A stretch of DNA of 59,104 nucleotides from IMG/VR virus record IMGVR_UViG_3300050016_000060, positions 1-59,104 of that record; one strand, given 5' to 3'. Each line of letters starts with the position of its first letter. Within the stretch, counting starts at the first letter, position 1. The position numbers were made by a program, and so were the translations under genes. Source of the DNA: a virus. Positions 3,580 through 53,025 of this stretch are shown here, piece by piece. The notes under the pieces were generated by a model that saw only the letters and a list, made by a program, of their open reading frames with translations, made no database searches and was not told where the DNA came from.

Positions 3580-3762
3580 ATGAAAAAGCAACTTAGCCGA
3601 CAACGGCGCTGGCAGATTGCGCAGCGGAAAGCGGGACGATGCGAACGCTGCGGGGAGCCACGAAGCGAACGGAGCGGCATTCATTGCGACGAATGCTTGG
3701 ATAAACGAGCGGCGGAAGAAAAAAATAAAACCCGCCTTGACACACTTGCGGCTTGTGGGTAA
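3580..3762 (+). CDS. zinc-ribbon mini-protein, 60 aa
   Basis: GAAAGGGGCAGGCT precedes the ATG. A basic helix (residues 1-20) is followed by CERCGE...HCDECLDK, a CxxC...CxxC ribbon. Its 3' end contains the promoter of the structured RNA that follows. Confidence 0.6.
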   Translation: MKKQLSRQRRWQIAQRKAGRCERCGEPRSERSGIHCDECLDKRAAEEKNKTRLDTLAACG

Positions 3763-3765
3763 TCT
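3737..3765 (+). promoter_or_regulatory. sigma70-type promoter for the structured RNA
   Basis: TTGACA at 3737-3742, a 17-base spacer and TAATCT at 3760-3765. The predicted start is near 3772, just before the first hairpin of the RNA. The second RNA copy on the minus strand also has TTGACA at the equivalent position. Confidence 0.7.
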
Positions 3766-3771
3766 ACCGGA

Positions 3772-4190
3772 GTGAAATGAAAGCGGGGCGGCGGATTCTT
3801 TCGACAAGATGACCGCTCGCCCCTAAAAGCGTACCGACGAATCCATTCTATACGAATCACGTCGGAACGCAATTCCATTCCACGACATAGCCCCAGGATG
3901 GGCAAAGCCGCAAAACGTCGAAGGAAGCGGCAAGGGCCGTCAGCCGTGGTCTAGGCCCAAAGATTCGACCTCACTGCTTTTGATTCGCCCCGGTGCATCG
4001 GGTAAGGCTCAATACGGCCCGATCATCGACAGGACGTGACGGAGGAATCGTGGCAACGTCCCTAAAAAACCAGACCATGACAATCGGAACCGACTCACCC
4101 GCGAGGAATTTCCTGCATTGGCTCCCGCTGCGGCGGGGTCAATGCGCCCCGATCTACGCCGCTCAGAATCGGTGGGAGCGGTGTCTTTAA
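3772..4190 (+). ncRNA. structured noncoding RNA, copy 1 of 2
   Basis: A protein-free stretch of about 420 bases downstream of a good promoter. It aligns with the reverse complement of 44815-45206 in conserved blocks: GGCAAGGGCCGTCAGCC, CTAGGCCCAAAGATTCGA, GTGACGGAGGAA, TAAAAAACCAGAC, CCGACTCACC and GGTCAATGCGCCCCGATCT. Pairing is supported by compensatory changes between copies: GGACGT/ACGTCC here against GGATGT/ACATCC there, GTCGAA/TTCGAC against ATCGAA/TTCGAT, and CCGACG/CGTCGG against ATGACG/CGTCAT. The 3' end has a 9-bp stem (ACGCCGCTC/GAGCGGTGT) followed by TCTTT, a weak terminator. It does not match tmRNA, RNase P or SRP RNA signatures that I know; the class is unassigned. Confidence 0.85.
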
Positions 4191-4206: not shown

Positions 4207-4488
4207 ATGACGCCAGAAGAACGAGCGCTATTGATACTTCCTCTTTGTACTGGCATGGACCTAGGCACAAAAGAGGAAGCTGATTATCACAGGAACGAAA
4301 TCGCCGCCGCCATTCGCCATGCCGTCCTTGCCGAGCGGGAAGCGTGTGCGCAGATAGCGGACCAGTGCGGTGATTACGTTGCCCGCGACAACATTCTGAC
4401 GAGGACGGTGAACTCAGAGAGTTCGTTGGAACTGTCGTCGGCCTTGTTCCAGAGGCCGCAACATGCAACATCCGGGTCGCCTATGTGA
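4207..4488 (+). CDS. hypothetical protein, 93 aa
   Basis: Preceded by AAGGAGTAGAACG. The N-terminus (MTPEERALLILPLC) and AAIRHAVLAEREACAQIAD resemble helical phage accessory proteins with a C-terminal AEREACA segment. Overlaps the next gene by 4 bases. Function unknown. Confidence 0.6.
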   Translation: MTPEERALLILPLCTGMDLGTKEEADYHRNEIAAAIRHAVLAEREACAQIADQCGDYVARDNILTRTVNSESSLELSSALFQRPQHATSGSPM

Positions 4489-4709
4489 CCGTGTACGAGA
4501 AAATCCCGTTCCTTGCGCAGCATCAATTCTTCGGTCCCGCCCAGGGGATTCTGCTCGTTTCGCATGACGGTGGGCAAGTCCCTGTCAAGGTTGACGTGGA
4601 ATATGGAGCATGTGCCGATTTTGAGTTGATCGTCGGAATTAAGATTCCTTGCTTTGTGGAAGGCAAGCCAATCGAAGGCAATAACATACTTGGGCAATCA
4701 CATACTTGA
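4485..4709 (+). CDS. hypothetical protein cut by the 4693-5022 cassette
   Basis: GTG start overlaps the previous stop. The last residues and the TGA stop are supplied by the cassette's inverted repeat, so the natural C-terminus was probably lost when the element inserted. The remaining protein has no known motif. The sequence beyond the cassette reads as a separate small gene rather than an obvious continuation. Confidence 0.5.
   Translation: MTVYEKIPFLAQHQFFGPAQGILLVSHDGGQVPVKVDVEYGACADFELIVGIKIPCFVEGKPIEGNNILGQSHT
4677..4692 (+). repeat. partial extra copy of the cassette terminal repeat
   Basis: GGCAATAACATACTTG directly abuts the full terminal repeat at 4693, which begins GGCAATCACATACTTG. 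The 16-base tandem copy may be the remnant of an earlier insertion or of imprecise excision. Confidence 0.6.
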
Positions 4710-5022
4710 CGCATCAGGAGAAAAAATGGCAAAAGCAAAACTTGGTGGCGCGGAAGTGACCTGCGATAAATTCGTGAAAGCACTCATTGATCGGCTGCTC
4801 GGTAACGAAAAACGCATCGAGCTGCTGACCACGGAAATAAACGACTTGCGCGACCAAATGGCGGAACAAGCTGCGTGGCTCGTTGCCGGCAAAGGTTTGA
4901 GGTTCAGCAATGTTCTTGACGCTGACAGCGATCTCCCAAATTCACACACGGTATTCGTCCCTATCGAGCTATGCAAGTTTGGTGGGGAAACCGAATCCTG
5001 ATGCGTCAAGTATGTGATTGCC
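4693..5022 (+). mobile_element. 330-bp single-gene inverted-repeat cassette
   Basis: Left end GGCAATCACATACTTGAC... and right end are perfect inverted repeats over about 27 bases, through the CATCAGGA part. The only gene between them starts 6 bases after the repeat's AGGAG and stops inside the other repeat. The flanking 8-mers (CATACTTG and CAATGAAG) differ, so there is no intact target duplication. The ends match those of the duplicated elements at 53-56 kb, so this is probably a non-autonomous member of the same IS1595-like group. Confidence 0.8.
4726..5001 (+). CDS. cassette cargo protein, 91 aa
   Basis: ATG 4726 uses an AGGAG that is part of the left terminal repeat, and the TGA stop begins the right repeat. 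A predicted helix or coiled coil covers about residues 16-50 (DKFVKALIDRLLGNEKRIEL...TTEINDLRDQM). No known family. Its expression signals are partly element-borne: TTGACG in the repeat could act as a -35 box. Confidence 0.65.
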   Translation: MAKAKLGGAEVTCDKFVKALIDRLLGNEKRIELLTTEINDLRDQMAEQAAWLVAGKGLRFSNVLDADSDLPNSHTVFVPIELCKFGGETES

Positions 5023-5024
5023 CA

Positions 5025-5165
5025 ATGAAGGCATCCTGCGCAGCGGCAGATCGGATCGCCAAGGAGCTATCCAAGACTCTTATAAAAGACGTTTGGGATC
5101 GACTGCCGATTGCAATAGCGTTACGGCAAGCGGCCATGAACAAGCCACGAAAGGCGAAGAAGTGA
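5025..5165 (+). CDS. small protein after the cassette, 46 aa
   Basis: The ATG lies 3 bases beyond the right repeat. Reads MKASCAAADRIAKELSKTL... and ends in a basic tail (NKPRKAKK). It may be a complete small gene or the C-terminal remainder of a gene split by the insertion. Overlaps the next GTG start. Confidence 0.4.
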   Translation: MKASCAAADRIAKELSKTLIKDVWDRLPIAIALRQAAMNKPRKAKK

Positions 5166-9978: not shown

Positions 9979-10217
9979 AAAAACAATGCCTTAACTGTCG
10001 ATTCTGGGAGGACTGTGAGCCGGAAGAAAAGCCGTATCCAGAAGAAATTGTGCCAGGTTGCGGAGTAACCTTCTTGTCGAAATATGGTATTTGCCGACGT
10101 TATCCTCCCGATCCTTGCCCACCGGAAGGAAACCACGGATGGGCGGTTCTGAACTTTAGCGAATGGTGCGGAGAGTGGAAACCGATTGCGGCAAAAATAA
10201 AGAGGGAGGCGAGATGA
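9975..10217 (+). CDS. cysteine-rich protein, 80 aa
   Basis: GTG start overlaps the previous stop. CLNCRFWEDC at the N-terminus, then PGCGV, GICRRYPP and a final EWCGEW. Small Cys-rich phage proteins with CxxCxFW and a CRRYPP segment are common and of unknown function; they may bind zinc or an iron-sulphur cluster. Confidence 0.65.
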   Translation: MKKQCLNCRFWEDCEPEEKPYPEEIVPGCGVTFLSKYGICRRYPPDPCPPEGNHGWAVLNFSEWCGEWKPIAAKIKREAR

Positions 10218-11146
10218 AGATTCTTTTCGTCACCCATCGAGGGGGCGATTATTTGGCCTCGATGATTTGGGACGGCGCACAATCGCTCTTTGGTGAAGAG
10301 AACGTCTACGATGCCGTGAACAATCCTGGCCTTCACGCGGGCGGCGACTGGAATCCCATGTCCCGAATCAGCGGCACGCGGCAAGGGAAAATTCTTGGTG
10401 ATGAAGGCGACTTCGACTTGATGATCCTGAACGCTTGCTTTCTCCGCGATTTCGATTGGTCCCTTCCCGGCAAGTTACGCGAACGCATGAAGCCACGGGC
10501 GAAGATTGCTTACGTCGAAGGATGGGACTCGGCAGCGGAGCATCACGAACCGCCAACGTGGATGCGGATTAGTGATTGCTTCCGACGCGAGATTGATCCA
10601 TCCATCCGGTATCCGTTCCTTCGCGTTTGGCCGCTTTCGTTCGCAGCCCCGGAGCGATGGTTCGATGGAGCGGAGAGCAATGATCGACCGTGGGATTTAT
10701 TCTTCGCGGGAGCGGTGGACGGTTCAGGCGATACGTCGCCAGTTCGTTGGGATATGCTCGCTCCCATGTTCCAGACGCGGACGAAGCATCATTCGATGAT
10801 TGCCACGGGCAGCATCGGCATGGATGGCTACTTCGATATGCTCCGCAAGAGTAGGATAGGATTGTGCCCACCAGGGGCGGCGCAGAGCGTGGCCATGCGT
10901 GCGTTTGAAATCGTGGCTTGCGGGGCAATACCGTTTTTCATCGGAATGCCGCAATGGGAGCGTGATCCGTGGTTTGGTCCCGATACGTCGTTCTCTTGTC
11001 AGCTTGCATCGGGCTTGCCGGACATGATCGCCGCAGCGTTACGAAGCGATCTTGAGCCGATGCGGTTGGCGTGCATCGCTCATGCTAGGCAGCATCACAC
11101 GACGAAGGCCCGCGTACAGCAAATGCTGGAAAGGATGGGGGTATGA
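10214..11146 (+). CDS. GT-B-type glycosyltransferase
   Basis: Start ATG 10214 overlaps the previous stop (GAGATGA). 310 aa. The N-terminal Rossmann-like strand is MKILFVTHRGGDYLASM. The C-terminal half contains RKSRIGLCPPGAAQSVAMRA followed by FEIVACGAIPFFI, the nucleotide-sugar-binding E-x-x-A-x-G-x-(I/L)-P signature of CgeB/exostosin-like transferases. It transfers a sugar from an NDP-sugar; the acceptor is unknown. Confidence 0.75.
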   Translation: MKILFVTHRGGDYLASMIWDGAQSLFGEENVYDAVNNPGLHAGGDWNPMSRISGTRQGKILGDEGDFDLMILNACFLRDFDWSLPGKLRERMKPRAKIAYVEGWDSAAEHHEPPTWMRISDCFRREIDPSIRYPFLRVWPLSFAAPERWFDGAESNDRPWDLFFAGAVDGSGDTSPVRWDMLAPMFQTRTKHHSMIATGSIGMDGYFDMLRKSRIGLCPPGAAQSVAMRAFEIVACGAIPFFIGMPQWERDPWFGPDTSFSCQLASGLPDMIAAALRSDLEPMRLACIAHARQHHTTKARVQQMLERMGV

Positions 11147-11529
11147 GCATGTATGGCGAGTACAACATGGAACCGGACTACGCTCAAACGTATCGCGAAA
11201 ACAAGAGCGATGAAGCGATACGCACCAAAATGTCCATGCTTGAAGGCTTGGCGAAAGCGTTCCTGGACCATACCGGCTTGACGCCTGATCGCGTCGAATT
11301 GTGCCAACAAACGCGCGGAGCGGAAATTGTCTGGTACTTTCGAGAGCGGATAGAATTGCCCATTGTCCAGAGCGAACTAACCTATCGCGGAGTGTCTTTC
11401 GTTGGTCACATAACGCCAGCAGGAACATTGGCAATGCACGCCACGCCCGTTACCGTCCCCGAACCGGAAGAGGAAGCCGACGAAGAAGATGACGACGGAG
11501 CCGACACGCCGATCATCGTGGACGCCTAA
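11143..11529 (+). CDS. hypothetical protein with acidic tail, 128 aa
   Basis: ATG overlaps the previous stop. The N-terminus is helical (residues 18-45). The last 25 residues are Glu/Asp rich. It lies between the glycosyltransferase and radical SAM genes, so it may belong to the same pathway. Confidence 0.6.
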   Translation: MSMYGEYNMEPDYAQTYRENKSDEAIRTKMSMLEGLAKAFLDHTGLTPDRVELCQQTRGAEIVWYFRERIELPIVQSELTYRGVSFVGHITPAGTLAMHATPVTVPEPEEEADEEDDDGADTPIIVDA

Positions 11530-11531
11530 CG

Positions 11532-12527
11532 ATGCCCGCATACAGCTACTACGCCGAACAGCGCAACCTCTGGCAGCATGGACCCGCCATGAACGACTAC
11601 GCTGACAAACGACTGGCCCCGCAAAGCAAGCTGGCGTTGCATACGCAGTTTGCGGAGTACATGAGCGGGAAGCGGGTTTACCCGATCAACTTGGAAATAT
11701 CTCCAAGCGGTATTTGCCAAGCATCGTGCGATTTCTGTTTCTATGCGAATACCGGCGAGCTAGGTCATCATCGCAACGTCATGCTCGACACGGAGCGGGC
11801 GAAATTCCTCTTGCTCGAATGCCAAGAACTAGGCATCAAGTCCGTATCGTGGACTGGCGGTGGAGAGCCGACGTTGCATCCGCATTTCGAGCATCTCGTT
11901 GAAACCGCTCGCTACGCTGGATTGGAGCAAGGGCTTTTCACGAACGCTCTCGCCGCTCCGAAATACGATCCTCAATTACTCGCATGGGTCCGCGTAACGA
12001 TGACGGACAAGCCATTTCGCCCGGACTACATCAAGGCGTTGCGAACGTGCAAAACGGTTGGGATAGCGTTCAACTACAGCGGCCCACAAGATGACGCCTA
12101 TCTGCGTGACGTGCTGGCGATGGCGGTTGAGTGCCAAGTTTCGTATGTCCAGTGCAGGCCGGCCTTGAAGTTCCACGGGGAGACAACGGACATCGAGCCG
12201 CCGTCCATTGTGCATCCGTTGCTCCATATCACCGCGTATAAGTTCGACGAAGCACGCAAGCCGCATGGCACGCACTACGCGACATGCGAAGGATACCATC
12301 TTTCACCTATGTGCTGGGAAGACGGGAACGTAGATATTTGTTCGTACATGAGGCAGCATGAAGGATTCACGCTCGGCAATATCTACAAGCAAACGCTGAA
12401 AGAAATCCTTGACGCGGCTCCGCAAGATGTGCCTGTGCATAAGTGCTGCCAGGTAGCCTGCCGGCTGCATGAGACGAACCGCATGATCCATGCTTCACGA
12501 CGTATTGAAGATCGGAATTTTCCATGA
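11532..12527 (+). CDS. radical SAM enzyme with SPASM-like tail
   Basis: The CxxxCxxC cluster motif is seen in GICQASCDFCFY (C62, C66, C69). The following WTGGGEPTLHPHF is the SAM-binding GGEP motif. Near the C-terminus, CWEDGNVDICSYM, LGNIYKQTLKEI and a group of Cys (KCCQVAC) fit an auxiliary cluster of SPASM type. 331 aa is normal. Radical chemistry on a sugar, peptide or cofactor is likely. The glycan-operon context favours sugar or glycan modification (inference). Confidence 0.88.
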   Translation: MPAYSYYAEQRNLWQHGPAMNDYADKRLAPQSKLALHTQFAEYMSGKRVYPINLEISPSGICQASCDFCFYANTGELGHHRNVMLDTERAKFLLLECQELGIKSVSWTGGGEPTLHPHFEHLVETARYAGLEQGLFTNALAAPKYDPQLLAWVRVTMTDKPFRPDYIKALRTCKTVGIAFNYSGPQDDAYLRDVLAMAVECQVSYVQCRPALKFHGETTDIEPPSIVHPLLHITAYKFDEARKPHGTHYATCEGYHLSPMCWEDGNVDICSYMRQHEGFTLGNIYKQTLKEILDAAPQDVPVHKCCQVACRLHETNRMIHASRRIEDRNFP

Positions 12528-12970
12528 GCGAAATCGAAGTGCTTGACTTTTGTGCCCGTTTGCGGATAGCGATGTTGTATGCCGTTAATCATGGTCTTCG
12601 TGTAGAGGCTCATTTCGAGAATGGTCTTTACACGGACGCCGGGAAAATCAGGGCCGGAGTTTTCATTCATTACCAAAAAGACAAAGACGCGGTTCCGACA
12701 ACTAACTACAAGCCATTGACGGATGCGGAACGCAAGGAACTCCACAAGCCGTTGACGGAGGAATATGTCGCCCATTTCGGTGAAGGCCAGATTGCCCGTG
12801 ATGCAAGGCGACAACTGGCGAGAGAAATTGCCATAAAATGCAAGGAAGGCATACCCCTGGATTCCGAACCTACTTGCTCCGGCAACATGAAAGATGTCAC
12901 GTTCAGGATATTCAAAACGCGCGACGACGAACCGCCGCCTGAGCCTGAGATTGTGGAGAGGAAGCCGTGA
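12524..12970 (+). CDS. hypothetical protein, 148 aa
   Basis: ATG overlaps the previous stop. Mixed alpha/beta, with no catalytic signature. Part of the tightly overlapping glycan operon. Confidence 0.6.
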   Translation: MSEIEVLDFCARLRIAMLYAVNHGLRVEAHFENGLYTDAGKIRAGVFIHYQKDKDAVPTTNYKPLTDAERKELHKPLTEEYVAHFGEGQIARDARRQLAREIAIKCKEGIPLDSEPTCSGNMKDVTFRIFKTRDDEPPPEPEIVERKP

Positions 12971-13200
12971 GAATAGGATTGCCTTGTACAAAACGCATGA
13001 CGACTAAAGATGCAAGGATATTTTGCAATCAATTAAAAAAGGTGATGCTCAAGACTATTGCTGCAAACGAGCCTGTAACGGCATCATACGGTGATTGCTT
13101 TGGCGGATCAGGGAGGGGAATTGTATTTATTGAGCGTTCAATTGCTTGTAATGTTAGATCAATAATGAGGTCCATCAGATCGCGGAAAAAGAACCCATGA
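12967..13200 (+). CDS. hypothetical basic protein, 77 aa
   Basis: GTG start overlaps the previous stop. A Gly-rich loop (GDCFGGSGRG) sits between helices, with a basic C-terminus (RSIMRSIRSRKKNP). It is more A/T-rich than its neighbours, a hint of later acquisition. Function unknown. Confidence 0.5.
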   Translation: MRIGLPCTKRMTTKDARIFCNQLKKVMLKTIAANEPVTASYGDCFGGSGRGIVFIERSIACNVRSIMRSIRSRKKNP

Positions 13201-14294
13201 CCGCAAATGAAGTCACAATCTGCACATGCACCCTAGGCGATTCCGCCTTGCATCTCGGCACTCAGCTTGCAGAATTGCGGCGATTCACCAAACGTCGTTT
13301 TCGTCAAATCGTCGTCGATGATGGGACTGCCGACGAAACCATGAAGTGCAACCAGCACAAAGAATGCCTTCATAACGGTGCGCTATGGCTAGAAAATCTC
13401 GGCCCGACGTATGGCTGTTCGTATTCGTGGAATGCCGCTCTTGAGGAAGTGCAAACGCCGTGGGCCTTCTTGATCGAGGACGGCTTGCGTCCCGGCGTCG
13501 GCTGGCTCGAAACCGCTCTGGATTTCATCGCCAAGATCGGCAACCGCTCTTGGCACGGTCACAAGGTAGGCATGGCCGGATTCTCCCATATTCAGGACTG
13601 GACGCTCCGCATGGCCGGCGTGATTCCGTCCGACCTATCGACGATGGAATGGTGGAAACAGCAAGGCTATCGGGATTTCTACGGAAGCGATTGGAACGAC
13701 GGCTATTGGTGCTGGCCACGGATCGCGGGCGGATTGCTGGCGAATGCGGAAGAACTGACCGATGAGCCGCTTGTTGCACGGAAGATCATGCAAAACGCGA
13801 TGGAGATTCCCGCCGAAATCAAGCATGACGAAAACTTTGTGAAGGACCACGACAACTACAAGCTATCTACGTTTCCTGGCAAGTCCCGCTGGCCGCGTTT
13901 CCGCTCGGCAAAGTGCGACTGGTATCCCGGCGCGTTCATGCTCGTCAACATGGACGCATGGCGAGCCGTTGGCAAGTTCCGCGACGGTTGCACGTTCTAC
14001 GAAGGGCATCTAGGCATACGCATGGGTCAGCATGGGTATCTATCGTTGGCCGTGGAAGGCCCGCCGTTTCTGCATACGCCGTCGCTTGGCTTCACGGCAG
14101 GGCCGAAAGTAGGCAAGACGCCACGGCTGCACCTGGACGTGCGGGATACGTTCCTTGCAGATTTTGGCTACGACAACATCGAGGCTCCGCGATTGGCAAA
14201 TGCGGTTGTGTCGCTGGGCACGCAGGCGAAGATTAACGCGGAACTTGCCAAGGTGGAATTGTGGATGGATGAGGGATGGGAGAAATGGCTATGA
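13197..14294 (+). CDS. GT-A-type (family 2-like) glycosyltransferase
   Basis: 365 aa; the ATG overlaps the previous stop. VTICTCTLGDS at the start and QIVVDDGTADET near residue 40 form the nucleotide-binding strand and acidic motif. SWNAALEEVQTPWAFLIEDG carries the family-2 (D/E)D motif. The C-terminal half, with DWYPGAFMLVNMDAWRAVG, resembles the acceptor-side region. The acceptor is not predictable; it works in the same operon as the heptose enzymes. Confidence 0.78.
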   Translation: MTANEVTICTCTLGDSALHLGTQLAELRRFTKRRFRQIVVDDGTADETMKCNQHKECLHNGALWLENLGPTYGCSYSWNAALEEVQTPWAFLIEDGLRPGVGWLETALDFIAKIGNRSWHGHKVGMAGFSHIQDWTLRMAGVIPSDLSTMEWWKQQGYRDFYGSDWNDGYWCWPRIAGGLLANAEELTDEPLVARKIMQNAMEIPAEIKHDENFVKDHDNYKLSTFPGKSRWPRFRSAKCDWYPGAFMLVNMDAWRAVGKFRDGCTFYEGHLGIRMGQHGYLSLAVEGPPFLHTPSLGFTAGPKVGKTPRLHLDVRDTFLADFGYDNIEAPRLANAVVSLGTQAKINAELAKVELWMDEGWEKWL

Positions 14295-14491
14295 CGCCTG
14301 AACAATTACTAGCCGAATGGCAAGCTGCCAGGAAAGAATATCGCCTCTTGGATGACGAATGCACAGCGGCTTGGCGTGCCAAAGAGAACGAACGAACGCC
14401 AGCTAAGGACGCCTACAATAACGCACGCGAAGCAAAAGAAAAGGCGTTTTCTAAAATGTGTGAACTGCAACGACAGATGGAGAATTCATGA
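14291..14491 (+). CDS. small helical protein, 66 aa
   Basis: ATG overlaps the previous TGA. The whole protein is predicted coiled coil (LLAEWQAARKEYRLLDDEC ... AREAKEKAFSKMCELQRQM). Its 3' end holds the GGAG for the next gene. Confidence 0.6.
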   Translation: MTPEQLLAEWQAARKEYRLLDDECTAAWRAKENERTPAKDAYNNAREAKEKAFSKMCELQRQMENS

Positions 14492-16369
14492 TTACGGTGT
14501 TGCTTTGACTTTCCCCACGGCCTCGGCGACGTACAGCAGCTTTCCGTCGTCCTCAAGCATCTCCGCAAATACCGTCCCGATTGGGCGGTTGACGTGAAGG
14601 TAGGCTACGGCAAGCATACGTGCCTTGCGGGAGTCTGCCGAAATGTTTTCACGGACAAGGACAAGCTAACCGGCGATTACAACACGAAGATAATGATTCC
14701 CTTCTTTGAAAATTGCCAATACTATACCGACCGCCCAAACAGCAAGGTCACGAACTGCCTGCGGGATGTGTTCGGCCTCGACTACGATCCATCGCTAGGA
14801 CGCTACGAGTGCCCGCGAAGCATCGAGAAAATGAACGTCGTCGCCGCATATCTCGCCTCGATTGGATGCAAGAGCAAAGAGCCGTGGAAGTGGAACGCCG
14901 TCGTCCTGCACTACGAAGGCAATACCTCTTGCCACAAGAAAAACCTACGCCATTGGCAGGTATCCGCATTATGCGATTCCATCCTCGAAGCTGGCCGCGT
15001 GCCGATCATCCTCGATTGGGACAAGCGAAGTACCGTGTACGATCAACGGGACATTTTCTGCCCCGTTGTTTCTCCCGATGACATCTGGGGGGGATTCGGC
15101 AGCGGAGACGCGGAGACGATTGCCTGCCTCATCTCACAAGCCGAAGCGTTCATCGGCATCGACAGCGGGCCAGGCAAGATTTCGTCATCGACCGATACAC
15201 CTTCGTTGCATTGCTGGATCGGGCATCACCCGATGCAATTTCACGATCCGGCTCCGAACACGACACACCTATTGCCGATCACGCATGATCGGTTGGACCC
15301 ATGCCGCGACAAACCGGAAATCCTTGACTACTTCAAGGAGCATTATCTCCACCGTACCTACATCGGGGAGCATGGGCTAGTGCAAGAGGGGCAGAAGTGG
15401 CTGGCCGAGGTCATTGGCAGTCCGCTCCCGTCGAATCAAAGGCCGGTCAAGTTCGTGCTGCCAAGCGGGATCGGTGATTGCGTTTGGGCCTTGCACAAAA
15501 TCCGTGCGATTGCCAACGGCAGGCCGATAGACGTGATTATCAGCGGCAATGCCAACAACGAAATCGAGAGGCGAGCGCTGCCATTTTTGAAGCGGTTCGA
15601 TTTCATTCGCTCGGCAGCGGTCCTCGATGTATCCGTGCTGATCGACCATAGCGATCCGGCAGACGCCAAGGGCCGCTATCGGTACGTGCCGGATGGGTTG
15701 AAGGGGAATCACCATTTCCTCATTCCGAACGCTACCTTGGAGCGGGGAGAGCGGTTGGAGACGTGGTTGCCGGAATATCCTATCGACTGGAAAACGATGG
15801 ACAGTTTCGATTGGTCCGGTACGGAGAAGGGGACGGAAGCGGGGAAGAAATTGCAACCGTTCGCGGCGTTCTATCTTGGCCCTGAGACTGGGAACACGGG
15901 AGAGGGGCACAATCGCGGTTCGCTCTGGACGCCTGGGCAATGGGTTGAATTAGGCAAAGCGTTGACGGATCGCGGCTTGCAGATTGCGATTGTCGGCGCG
16001 TCGTATGACCGTAGCTATTGGGAGCGGTTTGTGCGGCCAGAAGTTGAGCGGTCTGGAATGCAATGGGTTGACATGATCGGCAAGTTTGAAATCGGCGAGA
16101 CGTTCGCTTTTCTGCGGGAAGCGAAACTACTCTGTTCGTATCAATGCGGTCTGGCCATCGTCGGCCATTACATCGGCATGAACGTGATAACGTGGTGGCG
16201 CAGAGCCGGCGCGTCCATTCACCCGCACCGGCTCATTTCGTTCAATGAGGCGATGAAAGATAGCTGGACTAATCCAGCGTTGGCTGATCGGTACATCGGA
16301 GCAATTTACGGACGCGAAACGGTTGCCGATTTGCTTGGCGAAATTGACGCTAGGGGATGGACGCGATGA
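14488..16369 (+). CDS. heptosyltransferase-like (GT9) protein with +1 frameshift site
   Basis: ATG 14488 has GGAG 5 bases upstream. The frame stops after six codons at CTT TGA C (14503-14509). A +1 slip there gives MITVLLDFPHGLGDVQQ..., the expected GT9 N-terminus, and joins the 600-codon frame ending at 16369. Two GT9-like halves are visible: the first holds GIDSGPGKISSSTDTPS, the second starts KFVLPSGIGDCVWALHKI and contains FYLGPETGNTGEGHNRG. CTT TGA C is the site used in the release-factor-2 gene. A genuine mutation or sequencing error is the alternative. Probably transfers heptose or a similar sugar. Confidence 0.8.
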
Positions 16370-16581
16370 GGCTGGACATCGACGGCGTGACCGTGCCTAT
16401 CGGAGAGATGCACCTTTTCACGCTTCGCTTTTACCAGAAAGGCGGGAGCGGCATTGGCGAACTCTTGACCATCGAGCCGACGCTTTACATGGACGGAAAA
16501 CGGGTAACGCGATGCTGGCGAATGGTTATGGATATTTCGATCTTGCCCGATGAACACGGCGGAAACGCTAATACGCAATAA
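16366..16581 (+). CDS. hypothetical protein, 71 aa
   Basis: ATG overlaps the GT9 stop. Beta-rich, ending in EHGGNANTQ. Possibly a small structural or accessory protein; no family recognised. Confidence 0.55.
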   Translation: MRLDIDGVTVPIGEMHLFTLRFYQKGGSGIGELLTIEPTLYMDGKRVTRCWRMVMDISILPDEHGGNANTQ

Positions 16582-16587
16582 AAAAAA

Positions 16588-16698
16588 ATGACGGATGATG
16601 ACATGCACGCTTTCGATTTCAGCCGATCGCTCGTCATCTATCCGCCCTGGGCCTCCGGCACGTTCCGCTTCGGTTACAAGCCACGGTGCGCCGGGTGA
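16588..16698 (+). CDS. mini-protein, 36 aa
   Basis: ATG after a run of A with no clear ribosome site. Reads MTDDDMHAFDFSRSLVIYPP and ends YKPRCAG. It overlaps the convergent IS110-like gene by 25 bases. Weakly supported. Confidence 0.3.
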   Translation: MTDDDMHAFDFSRSLVIYPPWASGTFRFGYKPRCAG

Positions 16699-17465
16699 TC
16701 GTTCCATTCAATCCAAAGCATCTTGAGGAAAAGTTTCGTCGCCAGCAACATGCCGTGCAAATGGCAACGCAGCTTTTTGTAATCGGGATGCGCCGCCTGA
16801 AACGTCGCCTTGGCTTCGTCGTAACGTGCCCGATAGATCGAATGATTTTGCTTCATTAACCCTTCCCCGATCAGGTAGGCAATCGAACGCCGACGAGGTG
16901 AATAGCCGAACTTCTCCCACTCTTCGGACGGCAATTTACCTTCCTTGCCGCGCCTCCACGTCGCTCCCATTGCTGTCTTGCCGTTGAAGATCAACGGGGC
17001 ACAACCGAGCCGCTTCCATACTTTTGCCGGATTGGCATAGTTGGCAAGGTCGCCAGTCTCGCCGATGACGATGGCGAGAAAGAGCAAGCCAAAACCGCGT
17101 TGCTCCGGTTTCTCGACCCATGCCTTGATCGGCAGTTTCTTGGCATATTGGAGCATGTTCTTTTCGATGGCATCCTTCTGCGCCTCAAAAGCATTGATGC
17201 CAATCAGCGTTGTCAGCACGATGGGCTTGAGCGGATGGTCCGCTCCCTCTTCCTCGATTGCCTTGATCTTAGCCGACGCCTCGATGAACTTCTTCGCTCG
17301 TTCCTCTTTGGTCATTGTCGTGCAATAGCCGAGCGTACCGGCAACTATTGCTTGCAAGCGATTGGATTGCATGTTGCGGCTTTTGACGATGATGCTACGT
17401 TGCCGCTGGAGCGGGACAAGTTGATCGACGATCAAGGCAATAGGACGTTTCGGCTGCATTGACAT
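16674..17465 (-). CDS. IS110-like C-terminal (Transposase_20) domain protein
   Basis: Start ATG 17465 follows GAAAGGAAACACC. 263 aa. After a helical N-terminal part, residues about 135-240 read GETGDLANYANPAKVWKRLG and ...GKTAMGATWRRG..., then GYSPRRRSIAYLIGEGL, TK.FLK.LW. This is the helix-hairpin-helix C-terminal domain of IS110/IS116 transposases. The N-terminal DEDD (RuvC-like) catalytic domain is absent, so it is not an autonomous recombinase. It may be a domesticated DNA-binding protein. Flanked upstream by an inverted repeat. Confidence 0.7.
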   Translation of the reverse strand: MSMQPKRPIALIVDQLVPLQRQRSIIVKSRNMQSNRLQAIVAGTLGYCTTMTKEERAKKFIEASAKIKAIEEEGADHPLKPIVLTTLIGINAFEAQKDAIEKNMLQYAKKLPIKAWVEKPEQRGFGLLFLAIVIGETGDLANYANPAKVWKRLGCAPLIFNGKTAMGATWRRGKEGKLPSEEWEKFGYSPRRRSIAYLIGEGLMKQNHSIYRARYDEAKATFQAAHPDYKKLRCHLHGMLLATKLFLKMLWIEWNDHPAHRGL

Positions 17466-17539
17466 GGTGTTTCCTTTCGGTTTGGGTGATTCTCTTGGCA
17501 TGATGCCACTCGGTTTCAAAGGATATCTCGTCAAGAAGG

Positions 17540-17619
17540 TGCAAAAGAAGTCAGTAGAGGTTAATAACGCCTGGGTCGATTACACGAGCGTAGTCATTAG
17601 CCTACTGACTTCTTTTGCA
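17540..17619. repeat. 18-bp perfect inverted repeat between two minus-strand genes
   Basis: TGCAAAAGAAGTCAGTAG (17540-17557) is repeated in inverse at 17602-17619, separated by 44 bases. The right arm lies in the last codons of the 17597-18097 gene; the left arm lies in the leader of the IS110-like gene. It could be a transcription-terminating hairpin, a protein-binding site or a recombination site. There is no T-run after it. Confidence 0.8.
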
Positions 17620-18097
17620 ACCTCTCGAATCCTCTCCGCAGCTTGTCCTCTGGCACGGACTCACGCACCGTCTTATCCTCTGGCACAAGCGTTGCGAGCC
17701 ATGTCGTCAGCATCACATTAAACCGATGGCCTTCCATAAGTTCCTTTTCGTCGGCAGCGATCTTCTCAAGTTCGTTGCCCATGACAGAGCCGAGCGACTT
17801 GCCAGCAATCGAGTAGAGGTAAACGCTCGCATAGGCATCGTTGACGGCCCCGGCAAGGTCTATTTTCGATTGATTGCTGTACGCTCCCGTATCGTTCTTG
17901 ATCTGACGATTCGTTATGTGCCGCTCGTCATGTACGCGGGCACGGATTGCCTCACGCACCAATTCGGCCTCGAATGATTTGAAATCGGGCAGATTCCGGA
18001 CTTGCTTATCCGCAAGATCGACTGCCGCGTCAATATCGTCGGGGAACTTCGCGGCACAACGCTGCGTTATCTTGATGACGCTCTGAGGAAACTCCAT
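17597..18097 (-). CDS. hypothetical helical protein, 166 aa
   Basis: ATG 18097 has AAAGGAG 7 bases upstream, which decides the start over the longer open frame to 18292. Predicted all-alpha and charged; its C-terminus (RGFERLQKKSVG) runs into the inverted repeat. Upstream of, and probably co-transcribed with, the IS110-like gene. No family recognised. Confidence 0.6.
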   Translation of the reverse strand: MEFPQSVIKITQRCAAKFPDDIDAAVDLADKQVRNLPDFKSFEAELVREAIRARVHDERHITNRQIKNDTGAYSNQSKIDLAGAVNDAYASVYLYSIAGKSLGSVMGNELEKIAADEKELMEGHRFNVMLTTWLATLVPEDKTVRESVPEDKLRRGFERLQKKSVG

Positions 18098-18316
18098 CTG
18101 GAAACTCCTTTCGTTTGAATTGGCCGCAATTCGCGAGCCGGTTTCATGTGTTGATTCGCGGCCTTGGTTTAAAAATGGCGACATCGAAAGAGACGGTTTC
18201 AATCCTCGACTCGCCGCCAAACTGATTTTGGCTCTCTTGTTTTCGCATTCAGCAACACATTCGCCAAAACCATAATTGAATCCTATAGCCATACTTTCGC
18301 TACGGCAATATCAATC

Positions 18317-18345
18317 TTGACGATTTCCCAAAATTTAGCTAATCT
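18317..18345 (+). promoter_or_regulatory. sigma70-type promoter with leaderless start
   Basis: TTGACG (18317-18322), a 17-base spacer and TAATCT (18340-18345). One ATG follows the -10 box immediately and a second, at 18352, sits at the predicted transcription start. Same geometry as the promoter at 9765. Confidence 0.65.
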
Positions 18346-18351
18346 ATGGCA

Positions 18352-18522
18352 ATGGCACGCCAAAAGAAAAAACCGGCTGACAAACGAACGAATTGCCTTC
18401 GCACGATGCTGACCGCAGAAGAACGTAAGCTAATCGACCGTGCTGCATCGGTTGCTGGCGAGGATACATCGTCGCATGTTCGCCGGCTCGTTCTGGACTT
18501 GATCCGCAAGGGGAGCCGATGA
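18352..18522 (+). CDS. ribbon-helix-helix-like regulator, 56 aa
   Basis: ATG 18352 is preferred because it coincides with the predicted start of transcription; ATG 18346 is in frame. A basic N-terminus, a strand (NCLRTMLTAEE), and the helices RKLIDRAASVAG and TSSHVRRLVLDLIRK match the Arc-like fold. The stop overlaps the hldE-like start. It may control its own operon; it resembles the 9802 protein in layout rather than sequence. Confidence 0.6.
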   Translation: MARQKKKPADKRTNCLRTMLTAEERKLIDRAASVAGEDTSSHVRRLVLDLIRKGSR

Positions 18523-19805
18523 ATCCAATCGACACGCTTATCGAAGCCGACCGCACGACGCCGAAACGCATTGCCATACTAGGCGACCGCATGACGGACA
18601 TATGGATTCACGGCCACTTGGGAACGTGCCAAGAGCAAGCCATGAAGTTCGTAGAAGATTCCAGAATTGCCACAGAGGGCGGAGCGGCGAACGCATGGCG
18701 GCAATTGGAGAACTGGAATTGCCGACGCTTCGGAATGGGATCGCCACGCCCAGAGCGAAACATCAAGACTCGTTTTGTTGTCGATGACAAAATACTCTTT
18801 CGCCATGACGTAGATTTTTTTGGCGAAGCCAATTCAATCGAAGCGAATCAGAAATCAGAATTTGATCGCTTGCTGGAAGCCAAACCAGACGCTTGCCTGA
18901 TAAGTGATTACGCGAAAGATTTCTGGACGCCTGCCTTTATCCGCGATGTCATCACCTACGCCAACGGACGCGGCATTCCGGTCGTAGCGGACGCGAAGAG
19001 AGAGCCGACAGTTTACAAGGGAGCAATCATCAAGTGCAATAAGGCTTATCGCCTACATTTTTATACCTATGAAACATCCAGAAATGACACCTTGGTTATT
19101 ACCAGCGGCGAATATGAGCCGACCGTTATAAGCAACGATGTCGATTTGCATATGCCGAAAGCCCATCCCTATGTCCAATGCGTCAACCACATCGGTGCAG
19201 GAGATAGCTTTGCGGCACATCTAACCCTTGCTCTCGCCCACGGCCTCTCGCTTGAAGATGCCGCCACTATCGCTCATTCAGCCGGTCGTGTTTATGTGCA
19301 ATATCCGCATGGCCGTCCACCGTGGCCACACGAAATCAAGCGCGACATTGATCCACTGGCCGGCAAAATCCTCATCGGCCCCGACATGCCAGGACTCCGC
19401 AAGAGCATCCCCGGCAGGATCGTATTCAGTAACGGCTGTTACGATTTGCTAGGCGCGCATCATCTATACTGCCTCGAAAAGTCCAAGCAATTCGGCGACG
19501 TTCTAGTTGTCGGCGTCAACTCCGATGAAAGCGTGCGTCGGCTGAAAGGACCGAAGCGGCCTATCCAACCGCTTGCAGATCGCGTTGCCATGCTCTGCGG
19601 GCTTTCCTTCGTCGATTGGGTTGTGCCGTTCGATCAAAATGACCCGTCCGAAATCATGCGGCTGTTGAAGCCGGACATTCGCACGAAGGGGGATTTCCCC
19701 GAACTGAATCGGGCCGGCGATGAACACGCCAAAGAAGTGCGATTGATTCCACCGCTGCCAGGCTATTCGACCACGAACACGCTTCGCAAAATTATGGACT
19801 CGTAA
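18519..19805 (+). CDS. hldE: bifunctional heptose-7-phosphate kinase / heptose-1-phosphate adenylyltransferase-like
   Basis: 428 aa, shorter than the usual 470-480. The N-terminal half is a PfkB/ribokinase fold: GGAANAW near residue 55, SDYAKDFW, and NHIGAGDSFAAHLTLAL with the catalytic GAGD. The C-terminal half is a nucleotidyltransferase: RIVFSNGCYDLLGAHHLYCL, VVGVNSDESVRRLKG and RP. In LPS synthesis HldE makes ADP-heptose precursors. With the GT9 gene this suggests phage-made heptosyl or related glycan. The 3' end overlaps the convergent tail gene by 14 bases. Confidence 0.85.
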   Translation: MNPIDTLIEADRTTPKRIAILGDRMTDIWIHGHLGTCQEQAMKFVEDSRIATEGGAANAWRQLENWNCRRFGMGSPRPERNIKTRFVVDDKILFRHDVDFFGEANSIEANQKSEFDRLLEAKPDACLISDYAKDFWTPAFIRDVITYANGRGIPVVADAKREPTVYKGAIIKCNKAYRLHFYTYETSRNDTLVITSGEYEPTVISNDVDLHMPKAHPYVQCVNHIGAGDSFAAHLTLALAHGLSLEDAATIAHSAGRVYVQYPHGRPPWPHEIKRDIDPLAGKILIGPDMPGLRKSIPGRIVFSNGCYDLLGAHHLYCLEKSKQFGDVLVVGVNSDESVRRLKGPKRPIQPLADRVAMLCGLSFVDWVVPFDQNDPSEIMRLLKPDIRTKGDFPELNRAGDEHAKEVRLIPPLPGYSTTNTLRKIMDS

Positions 19806-43159: not shown

Positions 43160-44635
43160 TTACTTCGCCGCAGCAACCGCTTGATGCGGAATGCCGCCCG
43201 TGTTTCCGAGAACCGTTTTCATGATCTCTTCCCGACGTTCCGCTGTCATCGTCCCATCGGACGGAGGACTCTGCACGCTGAACGCACCCGATGACTCTCG
43301 CAAGAGCGCCGGCAAGTCAGCCGCCTTTTCCAGCACGCGGAGAGCCGTTTCCATCGGGTCGATGATCTGCCCTTCCAAGCCAAGCGACATTTGCACGCCA
43401 GGCAAAGAGAACTCGGCAGCAACCGCCGACCGCTGATCGTGCGGAACCTTACTCTTGAGCAAGCGGTCGATACGCGCCTGCCGATGCTTCTTGGCCGCTT
43501 CCAGCCGTTCGGCGTCGGCCCCCTTGCGTTTGTTTCGTTCGGCGTCAAGCTCGTTTTGCATCGAGAGCATGGCCGATTTCAGGATCGGGTCTTCAACCCG
43601 TTTGATACGGTCTGCCAGTGACATTTGCATCGCAGGACTCTCCTCAACGATTGGATTCATCGGCTCTTTTGCAGCCGTGTCAACGTCCGTTTCCATGTCG
43701 ATTGATTCTTCCGGCTCCTTCGCCATTTCCTTCACGCCCCGCATCAGCGATTCGTAAAGGTTGCGCACGAAGGACTTGCCAGGATGCGGCGGCACGGGAA
43801 TGCCCATGCAGTCGAGCAGATGAAAGATGACTTCCTCAAGGTGCGAATCGCCGTCTTGATCGTCCAAGGCTTCCGGCACGCCCATGCCGGTCTCTTCTTC
43901 CGTGCCTTCCTTCTTCGGCGGTTCGCTGCCTTCGGCTTCATAGTCGCCTGGGATTTCGTCGTTCTCTTCCATGTCCTCCATTTCCTCTTCGCTGAACTTC
44001 ACGCCAGCGAACAGGCTGAAAGCGATGGGAGCGACCGGCTTGTACTTCTTGCCGACCTTCTTCAACAGGCCGGCGCGGGAAAGAGCAAACCCCTCTTGCG
44101 TGACCGTGGCCACGTCCAGCGGCTTCGCTTTCGGAGCAAGGGAGAGAGCGGCATTGGCCTCGATGAAAGGTTGCTGGCGAGCGATACGCGGGCGAGTGGT
44201 CAGAGCGACATGAGAGATAACGCCGTTCCACTTGCGACCTTCCCCGTCCGTGAAGCTGTTGACCCACGGCGATGCCCAGCGAATCGACCCTTGCTTGATC
44301 CCTTCGGCGGCTTCCGGCTTCGTGATGTTTAGGATGCCGAACAGCGCCGGAATGTCCTTCGCGTTCTCGTCCTTCACCATTCCCTTTTCGTATCGCTTGA
44401 CCTCGCCAGCATTGTGAAGCACCGTGTTCGCGGCCTTCTCTTCCGGCGTCATCGCGGTCGCGGTCGGCTGATGTTCCAGAGGAACGGGAATCGAGATGCC
44501 GTGACTCAGCATCTTCACGCCGTCATCGTGGTAATGGTCGATGGTTGCAGGCGTCACGTCGAGAACTTGCGGCTTGCCCTTATCGTCGATGTAGACGTGC
44601 TTGCCAGCGCGAATGATTTCTTTGCGGACTTCCAT
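43160..44635 (-). CDS. Mu I-like prohead protease/scaffold protein, 491 aa
   Basis: ATG 44635 is preferred for its AAGGAT; a TTG start at 44674 adds 13 residues. The N-terminal half (KHVYIDDKGKPQVLDVTP, IRWASPWVNSF, GVISHVALTTRP near residue 150) follows the Mu I-type protease layout. The C-terminal half is acidic and helical (about residues 225-430), as expected for scaffold that the protease removes. Immediately upstream of the decoration and capsid genes. Confidence 0.75.
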   Translation of the reverse strand: MEVRKEIIRAGKHVYIDDKGKPQVLDVTPATIDHYHDDGVKMLSHGISIPVPLEHQPTATAMTPEEKAANTVLHNAGEVKRYEKGMVKDENAKDIPALFGILNITKPEAAEGIKQGSIRWASPWVNSFTDGEGRKWNGVISHVALTTRPRIARQQPFIEANAALSLAPKAKPLDVATVTQEGFALSRAGLLKKVGKKYKPVAPIAFSLFAGVKFSEEEMEDMEENDEIPGDYEAEGSEPPKKEGTEEETGMGVPEALDDQDGDSHLEEVIFHLLDCMGIPVPPHPGKSFVRNLYESLMRGVKEMAKEPEESIDMETDVDTAAKEPMNPIVEESPAMQMSLADRIKRVEDPILKSAMLSMQNELDAERNKRKGADAERLEAAKKHRQARIDRLLKSKVPHDQRSAVAAEFSLPGVQMSLGLEGQIIDPMETALRVLEKAADLPALLRESSGAFSVQSPPSDGTMTAERREEIMKTVLGNTGGIPHQAVAAAK

Positions 44636-44814: not shown

Positions 44815-45206
44815 GGAAGATCGGGGCGCATTGACCCCGCCGCGAATTTTATCGCAGCGTAAGTCAATGCGTTTCCGTGTCGTAAAGGTGAGTCGGTAAC
44901 GCTTGCCGAAGTCTGGTTTTTTATGGATGTTGCTTCAGTTCCTCCGTCACATCCTATCGGTGAATGGGCCGTCTTTAGCCTCGCCTCATTGCACCGGCTC
45001 GCCTACGAGCGTTGCAGCAAACAGTATAGATCGAATCTTTGGGCCTAGACCACGGCTGACGGCCCTTGCCGCTTTTTCGATGATTGCGGCTGCGTCCATC
45101 CTGGGACTATTTCGGCTTGATTGGGATGACGAGAAATGATAAGCTATTTCCGTCATGACTAATTGCAGTCCCCGTCCTGATTCTAGTCAGGCGGGGACAT
45201 TTCATT
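44815..45206 (-). ncRNA. structured noncoding RNA, copy 2 of 2
   Basis: Homologue, on the opposite strand, of 3772-4190, with identical blocks such as AAGCGGCAAGGGCCGTCAGC and TAAAAAACCAGAC. The first hairpin is GTCCCCGCCTGA/TCAGGACGGGGAC, different in sequence from but equivalent to copy 1. The distal stem GCATTGAC/GTCAATGC encloses GCTGCGA/TCGCGGC. It precedes the protease gene by about 180 bases, so it could be a leader RNA or an independent transcript; the other copy precedes an unrelated gene, which favours independence. Confidence 0.85.
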
Positions 45207-45211: not shown

Positions 45212-45241
45212 ACTATCGCAAACCTCCCTACCCCTTGTCAA
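45212..45241 (-). promoter_or_regulatory. promoter for RNA copy 2
   Basis: TTGACA (45241-45236), 18 bases, GATAGT (45217-45212), placing the start near 45205, just before the first hairpin, as in copy 1. Confidence 0.55.
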
Positions 45242-45300
45242 GAGAAAAACCCGCCGCATGTTTCTGTCCATGCGACGGGCCGCGACGATGGGAGAACGTC

Positions 45301-45609
45301 CTACGATTCGCTGCGTTCGATCTTGATTTGATCGACTGGCCCACCTTCGATGCGGAAGTCCCATTCGTAAGCCCCGGTATAATCGCGTGTATTCGGCAGG
45401 CAGAGAATCATTCCTGATTTGATGTTCTCAGCGATCTGCCTTCCAATGTCGCGGCAACGCTCTGCCGCAGGAATGCGAAGAACGCCAATGCCCTTGATCG
45501 CTTCCGCTTTCAACGGCTCATCAGCCTTCGTGTCCGCCATGCTTGCCGGCGCTAAAATCGCCAACCCGATGCCAGAGCCGAATTGCTTAATCGCTTGTCG
45601 CCTGTCCAT
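45301..45609 (-). CDS. small exported protein with Tat-like signal, 102 aa
   Basis: AGGAGAACGACA upstream of ATG. MDRRQAIKQFGSGIGLAILA resembles a twin-arginine signal (RRQAIKQF), followed by ASMADTKADEP. The remainder (IRIEGGPVDQIKIERSES) is mixed. Role unknown; its place between virion genes is unusual. Confidence 0.5.
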   Translation of the reverse strand: MDRRQAIKQFGSGIGLAILAPASMADTKADEPLKAEAIKGIGVLRIPAAERCRDIGRQIAENIKSGMILCLPNTRDYTGAYEWDFRIEGGPVDQIKIERSES

Positions 45610-47293: not shown

Positions 47294-48784
47294 TTACCAT
47301 GCGGACTTGCCGCTTGTGAACAACAATGGGTCTTCCCGTGATTCCCTTATCGGCTGGCGTAGTCCTTGCACAACGCGGGCCGTGATTGATCGGCAGTCAA
47401 CCATATCATCATCTTCCCCAGGCGTTCCGGTCCACGACGAAAGTTGTTCTTTGAATGCCGAAAGCCACGGAGCATTTTGCGGTAGATGGACGCGATGGTT
47501 TTCTCCATCGATGATCGCTGCCGAGGCCCGCACCTTTTTATCTCGATTGCCAATTGGCATACACCGAACTTCGGGAATCTCAGGATGACGCCGATATTCC
47601 AAGAGCATCGCTTGCGAAAGATTGTCGTCATCACCAGCCACGATGTTCGGGTTCCACTGGCGGCACACATCGGCTAATCTCCCCCCAATATGCTCTAGCC
47701 GGATGCGGTCGTTAATGCTCTCAAATATAAGCGTTCGACCGTCCCGCGTCAAACCCGAATTTGCAGGAAGCAATCCCGATACCTCGATTGCCGTGTGATC
47801 GCTCGTTTTTTTCTTGCCCAGCGAAACGTCAATCGAGACGACAATCGTCACGTCCTTTGCATAATAAACTCGCCGTGTAGCCCCTTCCATCACCCACCAT
47901 GAATTAGGCACGCTATACGTCGATCCATAGATGGGCCAGTCCTGCGGCTTAAATAGCAGCCCTTCTTCGTCAGGCGGTTCCTGTTGCCAGCACGCCTTGA
48001 ACCATCGCCCGCGTTTTTGTTGAATCAACTGCAATCGCTTGAGCGGCACACGTTCAGGCCAAAGAGCATCACCTGCCTTGCGCCCGAGAATATCGTTTTC
48101 GCCAGCAATCGCTTTGAACTTCACGACACGCCATTTCTCGCCCGTGTCCATCGCCTCCCGATAAATCCGCCCCGGCAAGTCATCTTTCACCCATCGCGTT
48201 GTTACCATGATGATCGGAGCAACAGGACCGAGCCGCGAATAGGCCACGGTCGAATACCAGTCCCAATGGTTATCGAGGATCGTTTTCGATTGCGCCTGTT
48301 CCGCGTCCTTGATAACATCATCCAGAATGAGCATATCGGCAGGCCGTCCTGTCAAGCCGCCTTTCAATCCCTTGCAGACCAATCCGCCCCCGTGCCCCTC
48401 GATGTTCCATTCGTTCTTTGATTTCGTGTCTTTACGCAATTCGATCCCGTGTGGCCCACCGAATCTCCTAATAACTTCGCGGACCTTCGAGCCGAACGTA
48501 CCGGAATAATGTTCTTCATAAGACGCCAGCACGATCCGCATGAACGGGAAAAGCAAGAGAATCCAGGCAGGGAAGTAATGCGAGCAAAGAACACTCTTGC
48601 CGTGCTGAAATGGCATGTGAACGCCGAGCCGATCATTCAGACCGAGGCCGATGTCCACTAGCTCTTTGTTGACGACCGCGAGATGAGGGGCCATTCGCCA
48701 TTTGCCGTTTGTGTCGGCAAACGCTAATGTTGCTGGACTTGCAAGGTGCGGGCAGCGTTCAAGAAGTTCAGGAAGCTGCATCAT
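47294..48784 (-). CDS. terminase large subunit (TerL)
   Basis: ATG 48784 overlaps the upstream gene by 17 bases; 496 aa. ATPase: Walker A-like PFQHGKS (residues 58-64), Walker B MLILDD (about 150), coupling motif TTRW (about 190). Nuclease: first Asp in IVVSIDVSLG (about 340), then AGDDD, and DDMVD near the C-terminus. It cuts and packages the phage genome into the prohead through the portal. Confidence 0.92.
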   Translation of the reverse strand: MMQLPELLERCPHLASPATLAFADTNGKWRMAPHLAVVNKELVDIGLGLNDRLGVHMPFQHGKSVLCSHYFPAWILLLFPFMRIVLASYEEHYSGTFGSKVREVIRRFGGPHGIELRKDTKSKNEWNIEGHGGGLVCKGLKGGLTGRPADMLILDDVIKDAEQAQSKTILDNHWDWYSTVAYSRLGPVAPIIMVTTRWVKDDLPGRIYREAMDTGEKWRVVKFKAIAGENDILGRKAGDALWPERVPLKRLQLIQQKRGRWFKACWQQEPPDEEGLLFKPQDWPIYGSTYSVPNSWWVMEGATRRVYYAKDVTIVVSIDVSLGKKKTSDHTAIEVSGLLPANSGLTRDGRTLIFESINDRIRLEHIGGRLADVCRQWNPNIVAGDDDNLSQAMLLEYRRHPEIPEVRCMPIGNRDKKVRASAAIIDGENHRVHLPQNAPWLSAFKEQLSSWTGTPGEDDDMVDCRSITARVVQGLRQPIRESREDPLLFTSGKSAW

Positions 48785-49181
48785 GGGGTTTGCCGTTGGT
48801 GTCCTCGATTGCCTTGACCGGCGAACAAACTTGATCGGAGAAGGCAACCAACATCTTACGGACCTCTGGCGATTTCATGGCTTCCCGCAGCCCTGCCGTA
48901 GCTTCCATAACGTCCGTTTGCCGCTCTTGGACGCGAACCGCTTCACGCTTCACGTTGATCGAATCAGCCGTCAAAAGGACTTTCGCCGCTAAAAGTTGCC
49001 AGCGTTCGCTATCGGAGAACATGAGAATTGTATGGGCCTGGCCGATGATATTCTGCCGTATTTCCGGCGTCATCTGGTATTCGTTGCGAATTGCGGTGTT
49101 GGCCAGTTTCAAATCGGAACGTGTAACTTCCCCCTGACCCCCCATGAATTTGCCGTTTGAGTGGCCGTTGGTTTCGCTCAT
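48768..49181 (-). CDS. small terminase-like protein, 137 aa
   Basis: Directly upstream of TerL and overlapping it. Helical (MTPEIRQNIIGQAHTILMFS; ITADSINVKREAVRVQERQTD), with a Gly/Asn-rich N-terminus. No DNA-binding motif is obvious; the TerS assignment is by position and size. Confidence 0.55.
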   Translation of the reverse strand: MSETNGHSNGKFMGGQGEVTRSDLKLANTAIRNEYQMTPEIRQNIIGQAHTILMFSDSERWQLLAAKVLLTADSINVKREAVRVQERQTDVMEATAGLREAMKSPEVRKMLVAFSDQVCSPVKAIEDTNGKPHDAAS

Positions 49182-49588: not shown

Positions 49589-49741
49589 CTAGAACTCTCT
49601 TCGCCTCCTGCAGTCGTTTGAACGGCCCCTCGCCGCGGATTTTTTGCGTTTTGCTTTTTTCTTCCGGTATCGTTTTTCCGCGCGGTCAAGTTCACGCTTG
49701 CCAACCGCCAGGAGAGCGCGGAGTAATTCGTCAAAGGTCAT
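49589..49741 (-). CDS. IS1595-associated small basic protein, 50 aa
   Basis: ATG 49741 overlaps the TGA of the transposase-like gene. MTFDELLRALLAVGKRELDRA is followed by a Lys/Arg-rich tail. The protein at 56378-56518 has the same layout (FDKAMAALVQVPKSELDKA then basic tail) and the same position behind the other transposase-like gene, so this is a conserved accessory of the elements. Confidence 0.7.
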   Translation of the reverse strand: MTFDELLRALLAVGKRELDRAEKRYRKKKAKRKKSAARGRSNDCRRRREF

Positions 49742-51682: not shown

Positions 51683-51731
51683 TGAAAGATTTATCAAAAT
51701 ACTTTCCTGACGTTCCCGACAGGTTTTACTC

Positions 51732-52978: not shown

Positions 52979-53025
52979 GATTTTCCCGAAAATAGTTTTC
53001 TTGCCGTCCCGAAAGGCTCGGGGCG

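Follow-up and report, generated by a model that had tools for sequence, protein, structure and literature searches.

Two diverged copies of a noncoding sequence

What does a phage do with two diverged copies of one long intergenic sequence, lying on opposite strands ahead of unrelated genes? The window analyzed here (59,104 bases) is the entire IMG/VR record IMGVR_UViG_3300050016_000060, from an uncultivated tailed phage. An earlier note on this DNA had described two copies of a structured noncoding RNA, and both are present. Copy A lies at 3772 to 4155 on the plus strand, with a predicted start near 3772 and a conserved part that ends in GATCT at 4155. Copy B lies at 44818 to 45206 on the minus strand and scores 248.6 bits with a model (R1) that was itself built from A and B; a scan with R1 found no third copy in the record. 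When A was searched against the record by blastn, the two copies aligned with 73% identity over about 300 nt (E = 1.7e-41). This identity is unevenly distributed: blocks of about 42 to 44 bases and of 26 bases are identical, and the remaining stretches diverge much more. For a 42-base identical block, zero matches are expected by chance.

Neither copy interrupts a gene. A sits between open reading frames (ORFs) at 3580-3762 and 4207-4488, and B between ORFs at 45301-45609 and 43160-44635; the intergenic gaps that house them are unusually long, and B ends 180 nt before its gene. Coding sequence was considered as the cause of the similarity and was ruled out by the phase of substitutions and by frame-breaking gaps. 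Over the hand alignment's longest block without gaps, the three codon phases have 10, 12, and 8 substitutions, which gives no codon-phase pattern, and gaps of 1 and 13 bases disrupt any frame common to A and B. In addition, the frame of the 26-base 3' block relative to the preceding block differs between the copies. With no codon phase and with this block in differing frames, coding is not what has been conserved.

A shared fold with compensatory changes and two pseudoknots

To compare the folds, stems that both copies can form were enumerated, and the alignment was then refined by hand. Twelve helices recur in both copies, and 11 base pairs are altered on both sides between A and B yet still pair, most of them in one pseudoknot of two stems that has an A-rich loop and in two other helices. 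None of 300 column shuffles matched the observed sums of compensated pairs, whether for stems of at least 5 or of at least 6 pairs; the shuffles preserved the pattern of identical and different columns, and the comparison is between two sequences with gaps partly placed by hand.

From the 5' end, the first element of A is a hairpin, H1 (CGGGGCG...CGCCCC, 3784 to 3823, plus strand). The opening hairpin that had been reported as shared does occupy the same place in B, but the two sequences are not similar. H3 follows at 3890 to 3903, where the GCCC-CAGGAT-GGGC hairpin of A becomes GTCC...GGAC in B with one both-side change. The first pseudoknot, PKa, spans 3907 to 3969 in A and is composed of H4 (GCCGC/GCGGC, 3907-3911/3927-3931) crossed by H5 (GTCGAA/TTCGAC, 3917-3922/3964-3969); it encloses an invariant GGGCC...GGCCC hairpin. 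In B (45030 to 45090, minus strand), GCCGC/GCGGC is crossed instead by ATCGAA/TTCGAT, a single both-side change in H5. H7 of A (3991 to 4028) consists of CGGTG/CATCG and ATCGGGT/GCCCGAT, and its inner part in B is AATG(A)GGC/GCCCATT, with two both-side changes in the hand alignment.

The second pseudoknot, PKb, is of the H type and carries four both-side changes. In A (4032 to 4080), H8 (GGACGT/ACGTCC, 4032-4037/4056-4061) is crossed by H9 (TCGTGG/CCATGA, 4048-4053/4075-4080), and the loops of this fold include the invariant 10-base GACGGAGGAA and the A-rich AAAAAACCAGA. In B (44906 to 44954, minus strand), H8 reads GGATGT/ACATCC, which is one both-side change, and H9 reads CTGAAG/CTTCGG, which is three. 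H10, a helix found by eye, lies at 4086 to 4113 in A and at 44870 to 44901 on the minus strand in B; it changes from GGAA/TTCC to CGTT/AACG, again with three both-side changes, and its loop starts with the invariant CCGACTCACC. H11 and the invariant 26-base 3' block GCGGCGGGGTCAATGCGCCCCGATCT (4130-4155) complete A at 4115 to 4155. Two long-range pairings, GGGCCGT/ACGGCCC and CCGTCA/TGACGG, are also possible in both copies and are invariant.

The earlier note had pointed to the compensations in H5 and H8, which are real, and to invariant loops, which are indeed identical in A and B. It did not contain the both-side changes in H9 (three), H10 (three), H3 (one), and inner H7 (two), nor the two crossing-helix pseudoknots, nor the terminator and leader-like placement described below. 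In terms of energy, the penalty for adopting the shared nested fold instead of the free minimum is just 2.7 to 2.8 kcal/mol for A and B alike, with crossing stems not counted. Measured against shuffles, the folding energy of A is modest, at z = -1.75, and that of B is clear, at z = -3.64.

Collectively, the both-side changes, the failure of any shuffle to do as well, and the absence of a codon phase bear out the earlier description of a structured noncoding RNA with covarying helices. The duplication, the conserved fold, and the lack of coding are shown; A and B are paralogous copies, and we are highly confident that a conserved pseudoknotted RNA in two copies is real. To argue from the presence of two copies to a real function is reasonable but falls short of proof.

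Promoter-like sites, a predicted terminator, and the genes downstream

A common promoter position had been claimed for the copies, and a promoter-like site with TTGACA lies directly upstream of each. The site of A (3737 to 3765, plus strand) consists of TTGACA, a spacer of 17 nt, and TAATCT; it overlaps the end of ORF 3580-3762. Its -35 box matches at 6 of 6 positions and its -10 box at only 3 of 6, which is why it is missing from the listing of the promoter scan. The site of B (45212 to 45241, minus strand) has TTGACA, a spacer of 18 nt, and GATAGT preceded by TG, for 10 of 12 matches. TTGACA is scarce in the window (16 and 14 occurrences on the two strands, 30 in all), so one is unlikely to precede each copy this closely by chance (we estimate about 1 in 10,000).

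The strongest terminator-like site in the window is a predicted intrinsic terminator at 45248 to 45281 on the minus strand, with 13 pairs (8 of them G-C) and a T-run, and it ends just before the putative promoter of B. No other promoter-like site is listed between this terminator and the next gene start, and thus the head genes probably depend on the transcript that bears B. No terminator was found between B and the head genes. The sequence supports the predicted promoters and the terminator upstream of B, and B therefore looks like the 5' leader of a head-gene unit.

The first gene after B (43160 to 44635, minus strand) is an ORF of 491 aa followed by genes for a decoration protein and the major capsid protein. 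Its product is a probable head maturation protease, a call made by position and by eye; it had no match in Pfam or PHROG, and those of its neighbors that had matches are the decoration protein and the major head protein. The minus strand holds a tailed-phage gene set that includes the decoration, major capsid, portal, and head morphogenesis proteins, and the terminase is at 47294-48847.

A likewise precedes a run of rightward genes, the first of which (4207 to 4488, plus strand) encodes an unknown protein of 93 aa and has the Shine-Dalgarno sequence AAGGAG. The leader picture is weaker for A, which has a poor -10 box, further genes upstream on the same strand, and a possible terminator hairpin: just before the ribosome site of the following gene, a GC-rich hairpin and then TCTTT could end the transcript. 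At 4156-4190 on the plus strand, two mutually exclusive hairpins can be seen by eye, CCCCGAT/ATCGGtGGG versus CGCCGCTC/GAGCGGTG followed by TCTTT, and as a pair they would resemble an attenuator. A 3' switch of this kind was considered and set aside, as it is not conserved in B.

A and B as candidate cis-acting leaders

Paired copies before opposed gene blocks, promoter-like starts, and invariant loops carried on pseudoknots are best read together as a cis leader. Thus, we tentatively favor, at somewhat short of an even chance, the reading that A and B are leader RNAs that act in cis, as nascent RNA, most likely on the transcribing polymerase or the leading ribosome. Transcription of each copy would begin at a promoter of its own, and the copy would form the opening 400 nt or so of a phage transcript, with A heading the rightward genes from 4207 and B heading the leftward genes for head and tail, from 44635. 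The RNA would fold into consecutive hairpins and two H-type pseudoknots, its conserved loops would form a binding surface, and in cis it would act on the polymerase (or leading ribosome) that is making or following it, allowing read-through of long operons. We infer that the downstream mRNA includes this RNA and that the RNA may target polymerase, the latter on the model of the put RNAs of HK022.

Put RNA brings about factor-independent antitermination via the zinc-binding domain of polymerase. The HK022 put element is about 70 nt long with two stem-loops, and the pair binds polymerase during elongation and keeps it from pausing or terminating (PMC9378689). The likeness to putL and putR is one of arrangement: two similar structured RNAs, each after a promoter (predicted here) and before a gene block, in opposite directions. 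A and B differ from put in size and fold, being about 400 nt with two pseudoknots, and so are not members of the put family; the host and operon differ as well, and antitermination by A and B is a hypothesis.

The leader reading is favored by the 11 both-side changes unmatched among the shuffles, by TTGACA before both copies and the terminator before the promoter of B, and by the position of the copies on opposite strands at the heads of two convergent gene blocks, which resembles putL/putR. However, the downstream gene blocks yielded no internal terminators that stood out from shuffled sequence, which leaves antitermination without a visible target, and the RNA is 5 to 6 times as long as put, with no recognized sequence or fold in common. 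The poor -10 box of A, the same-strand genes upstream of it, and the GC-rich hairpin with TCTTT after it also weigh against this reading.

To our knowledge, very few phage RNAs work purely through their fold, and no function is known for the large ones, ROOL and GOLLD. A and B probably represent a novel type of phage control RNA. The more specific proposal that they form a new class of large pseudoknotted leader pair, which reprograms the host polymerase or ribosome with no protein factor and evolved independently as a counterpart of put, we consider unlikely. Diverged paralogues within one genome provide an internal comparative test of a fold, and placement at the heads of two transcription units leads to a definite, testable prediction of function, which is lacking for the large known phage RNAs. 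If the RNA does act on polymerase, factor-free RNA antitermination would have arisen more than once, in quite different form.

Alternative functions and searches for relatives

The main rival, less probable but still a substantial possibility, is a stand-alone structured RNA that acts in trans from two gene copies, abundant like ROOL or GOLLD and acting either by itself or in concert with host proteins or ribosomes. Its length, several pseudoknots, and large invariant loops would suit such an RNA, as would its own promoter, the unrelated genes downstream, and the possible terminator hairpin after A, but B is followed by no terminator, and two copies heading two gene blocks are more natural for a cis element. 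ROOL and GOLLD often, although not strictly, lie near tRNA islands, and this record contains no tRNA genes. Both are phage-encoded and form RNA-only cages (PMC12286853). Homo-oligomeric RNA complexes are characteristic of them and of OLE, and the three resemble A and B in being large and pseudoknotted, with invariant loops and unknown function; two of the three are phage-encoded. A and B differ in being shorter, in lying away from tRNAs, in occurring as two paralogues in one genome, and in having no Rfam match. Over the window, no family in Rfam (15) reached its gathering score, in agreement with the earlier claim that the conserved loops fit no known RNA class. With the threshold relaxed to E 10 for A and B, the only matches were weak ones to mir-7143, SprD, ceN125, and ssnA, which differed between the copies and were rejected as chance.

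Third in rank is a cis-acting sensor, either a riboswitch or a protein-binding leader, through which a signal from host or phage would control the two downstream units, whether by attenuation or by making the ribosome site more or less accessible. We consider it improbable. Two copies before different genes, with invariant loops on variable stems, are typical of a structured leader with a binding pocket, and the two competing hairpins close to the 3' end of A could serve as the switch. However, that switch is not conserved in B, which ends well before its gene, and A and B have no conserved expression platform, no metabolic genes under control, and an unusually large size for a riboswitch-type leader.

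It is very improbable that the similarity reflects a shared DNA element or a decayed duplicate gene instead of RNA structure: some frames are open across parts of both copies, but there is no codon-phase bias, and pairs are kept by both-side changes, including those in two crossing helices. Also very improbable is a guide or scaffold RNA belonging to a selfish nuclease, or what is left of a self-splicing intron (omega-RNA, group I, group II, or retron). The size, pseudoknots, and multiple copies do recall the structured, pseudoknotted 200- to 400-nt RNAs of HEARO/IscB and TnpB in mobile DNA, and the record has an HNH gene with an IS1595 zinc ribbon (49738-50622). However, both copies are intergenic and gave no match at E 10 to HEARO (RF02033) or to the group I intron (RF00028), the record has no match to TnpB/Cas12f (PF07282; the same search was positive in 6 control genomes) or to reverse transcriptase (PF00078), and the genes neighboring the copies show no nuclease domain. 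A search for RRXRR, the IscB N-terminal domain, gave no match in the record and none in its control genomes either. For the omega-RNA assignment, which the earlier note had raised against itself, there is neither a HEARO match nor a TnpB/Cas12f-type domain here, and the intron, retron, and guide-RNA readings are largely excluded.

Relatives of the RNA were also sought by sequence. In IMG/VR, exact 30-, 19-, and 18-base pieces and one two-part loop pattern had no match. Looser patterns gave matches that were rejected, being unrelated or coding on reading or at chance level with R1; among the matches listed, the best scored 14.5 bits, versus 229 to 249 for A and B. A sequence pattern found nothing in GTDB contigs, and blastn with both copies against INPHARED and PLSDB returned short chance matches only. 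As to the phage itself, its terminase has a single distant relative in IMG/VR and also matches distantly in INPHARED, where the capsid protein and the 43160..44635 product have no relatives; of the records with such terminases, that from IMG/VR and MW202426 were scanned with R1, which found nothing credible. Since pattern and blastn searches depend on short identical stretches or close DNA similarity, more distant homologues may well exist, and the nearest records possibly lie outside the collections searched.

Other features of the record

The plus strand carries a sugar-related cluster at 10163-19805, with glycosyltransferases, a radical-SAM protein, and a PfkB-cytidylyltransferase like HldE, which suggests glycan modification of host or virion. 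The closest matches of the HldE-like protein are on Planctomycetota plasmids at 30% identity, which is only a hint that Planctomycetota may be the host.

Several repeats are also present. A repeat of 24 to 30 nt, GGCAATCACATACTTGACGCATCA, occurs about 10 times, mostly as inverted pairs around single genes or small gene groups (4690-4719 and 4996-5025; 51732, 53026-53081, 54575, 56074-56102, 56563, 56618, and 58204), and these pairs look like the borders of exchangeable gene cassettes. A 113-nt block is duplicated at 51611-51723 and 52904-53016 with 86% identity; it contains a near-consensus promoter-like sequence (TTGACT-16-TATAAT) and is probably a shared early-promoter region. The gene at 49738-50622 (minus strand) fuses an IS1595-type zinc ribbon to an HNH_3 domain, and a 141-nt stretch from its start recurs inverted at 54432-54572; a second IS1595-ribbon-like ORF lies at 56127-56378. 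At the end of the record, positions 1-156 on the plus strand hold a tandem 12-bp repeat, GTGNGGGNTTCC, at the start of a DUF6745 reading frame.
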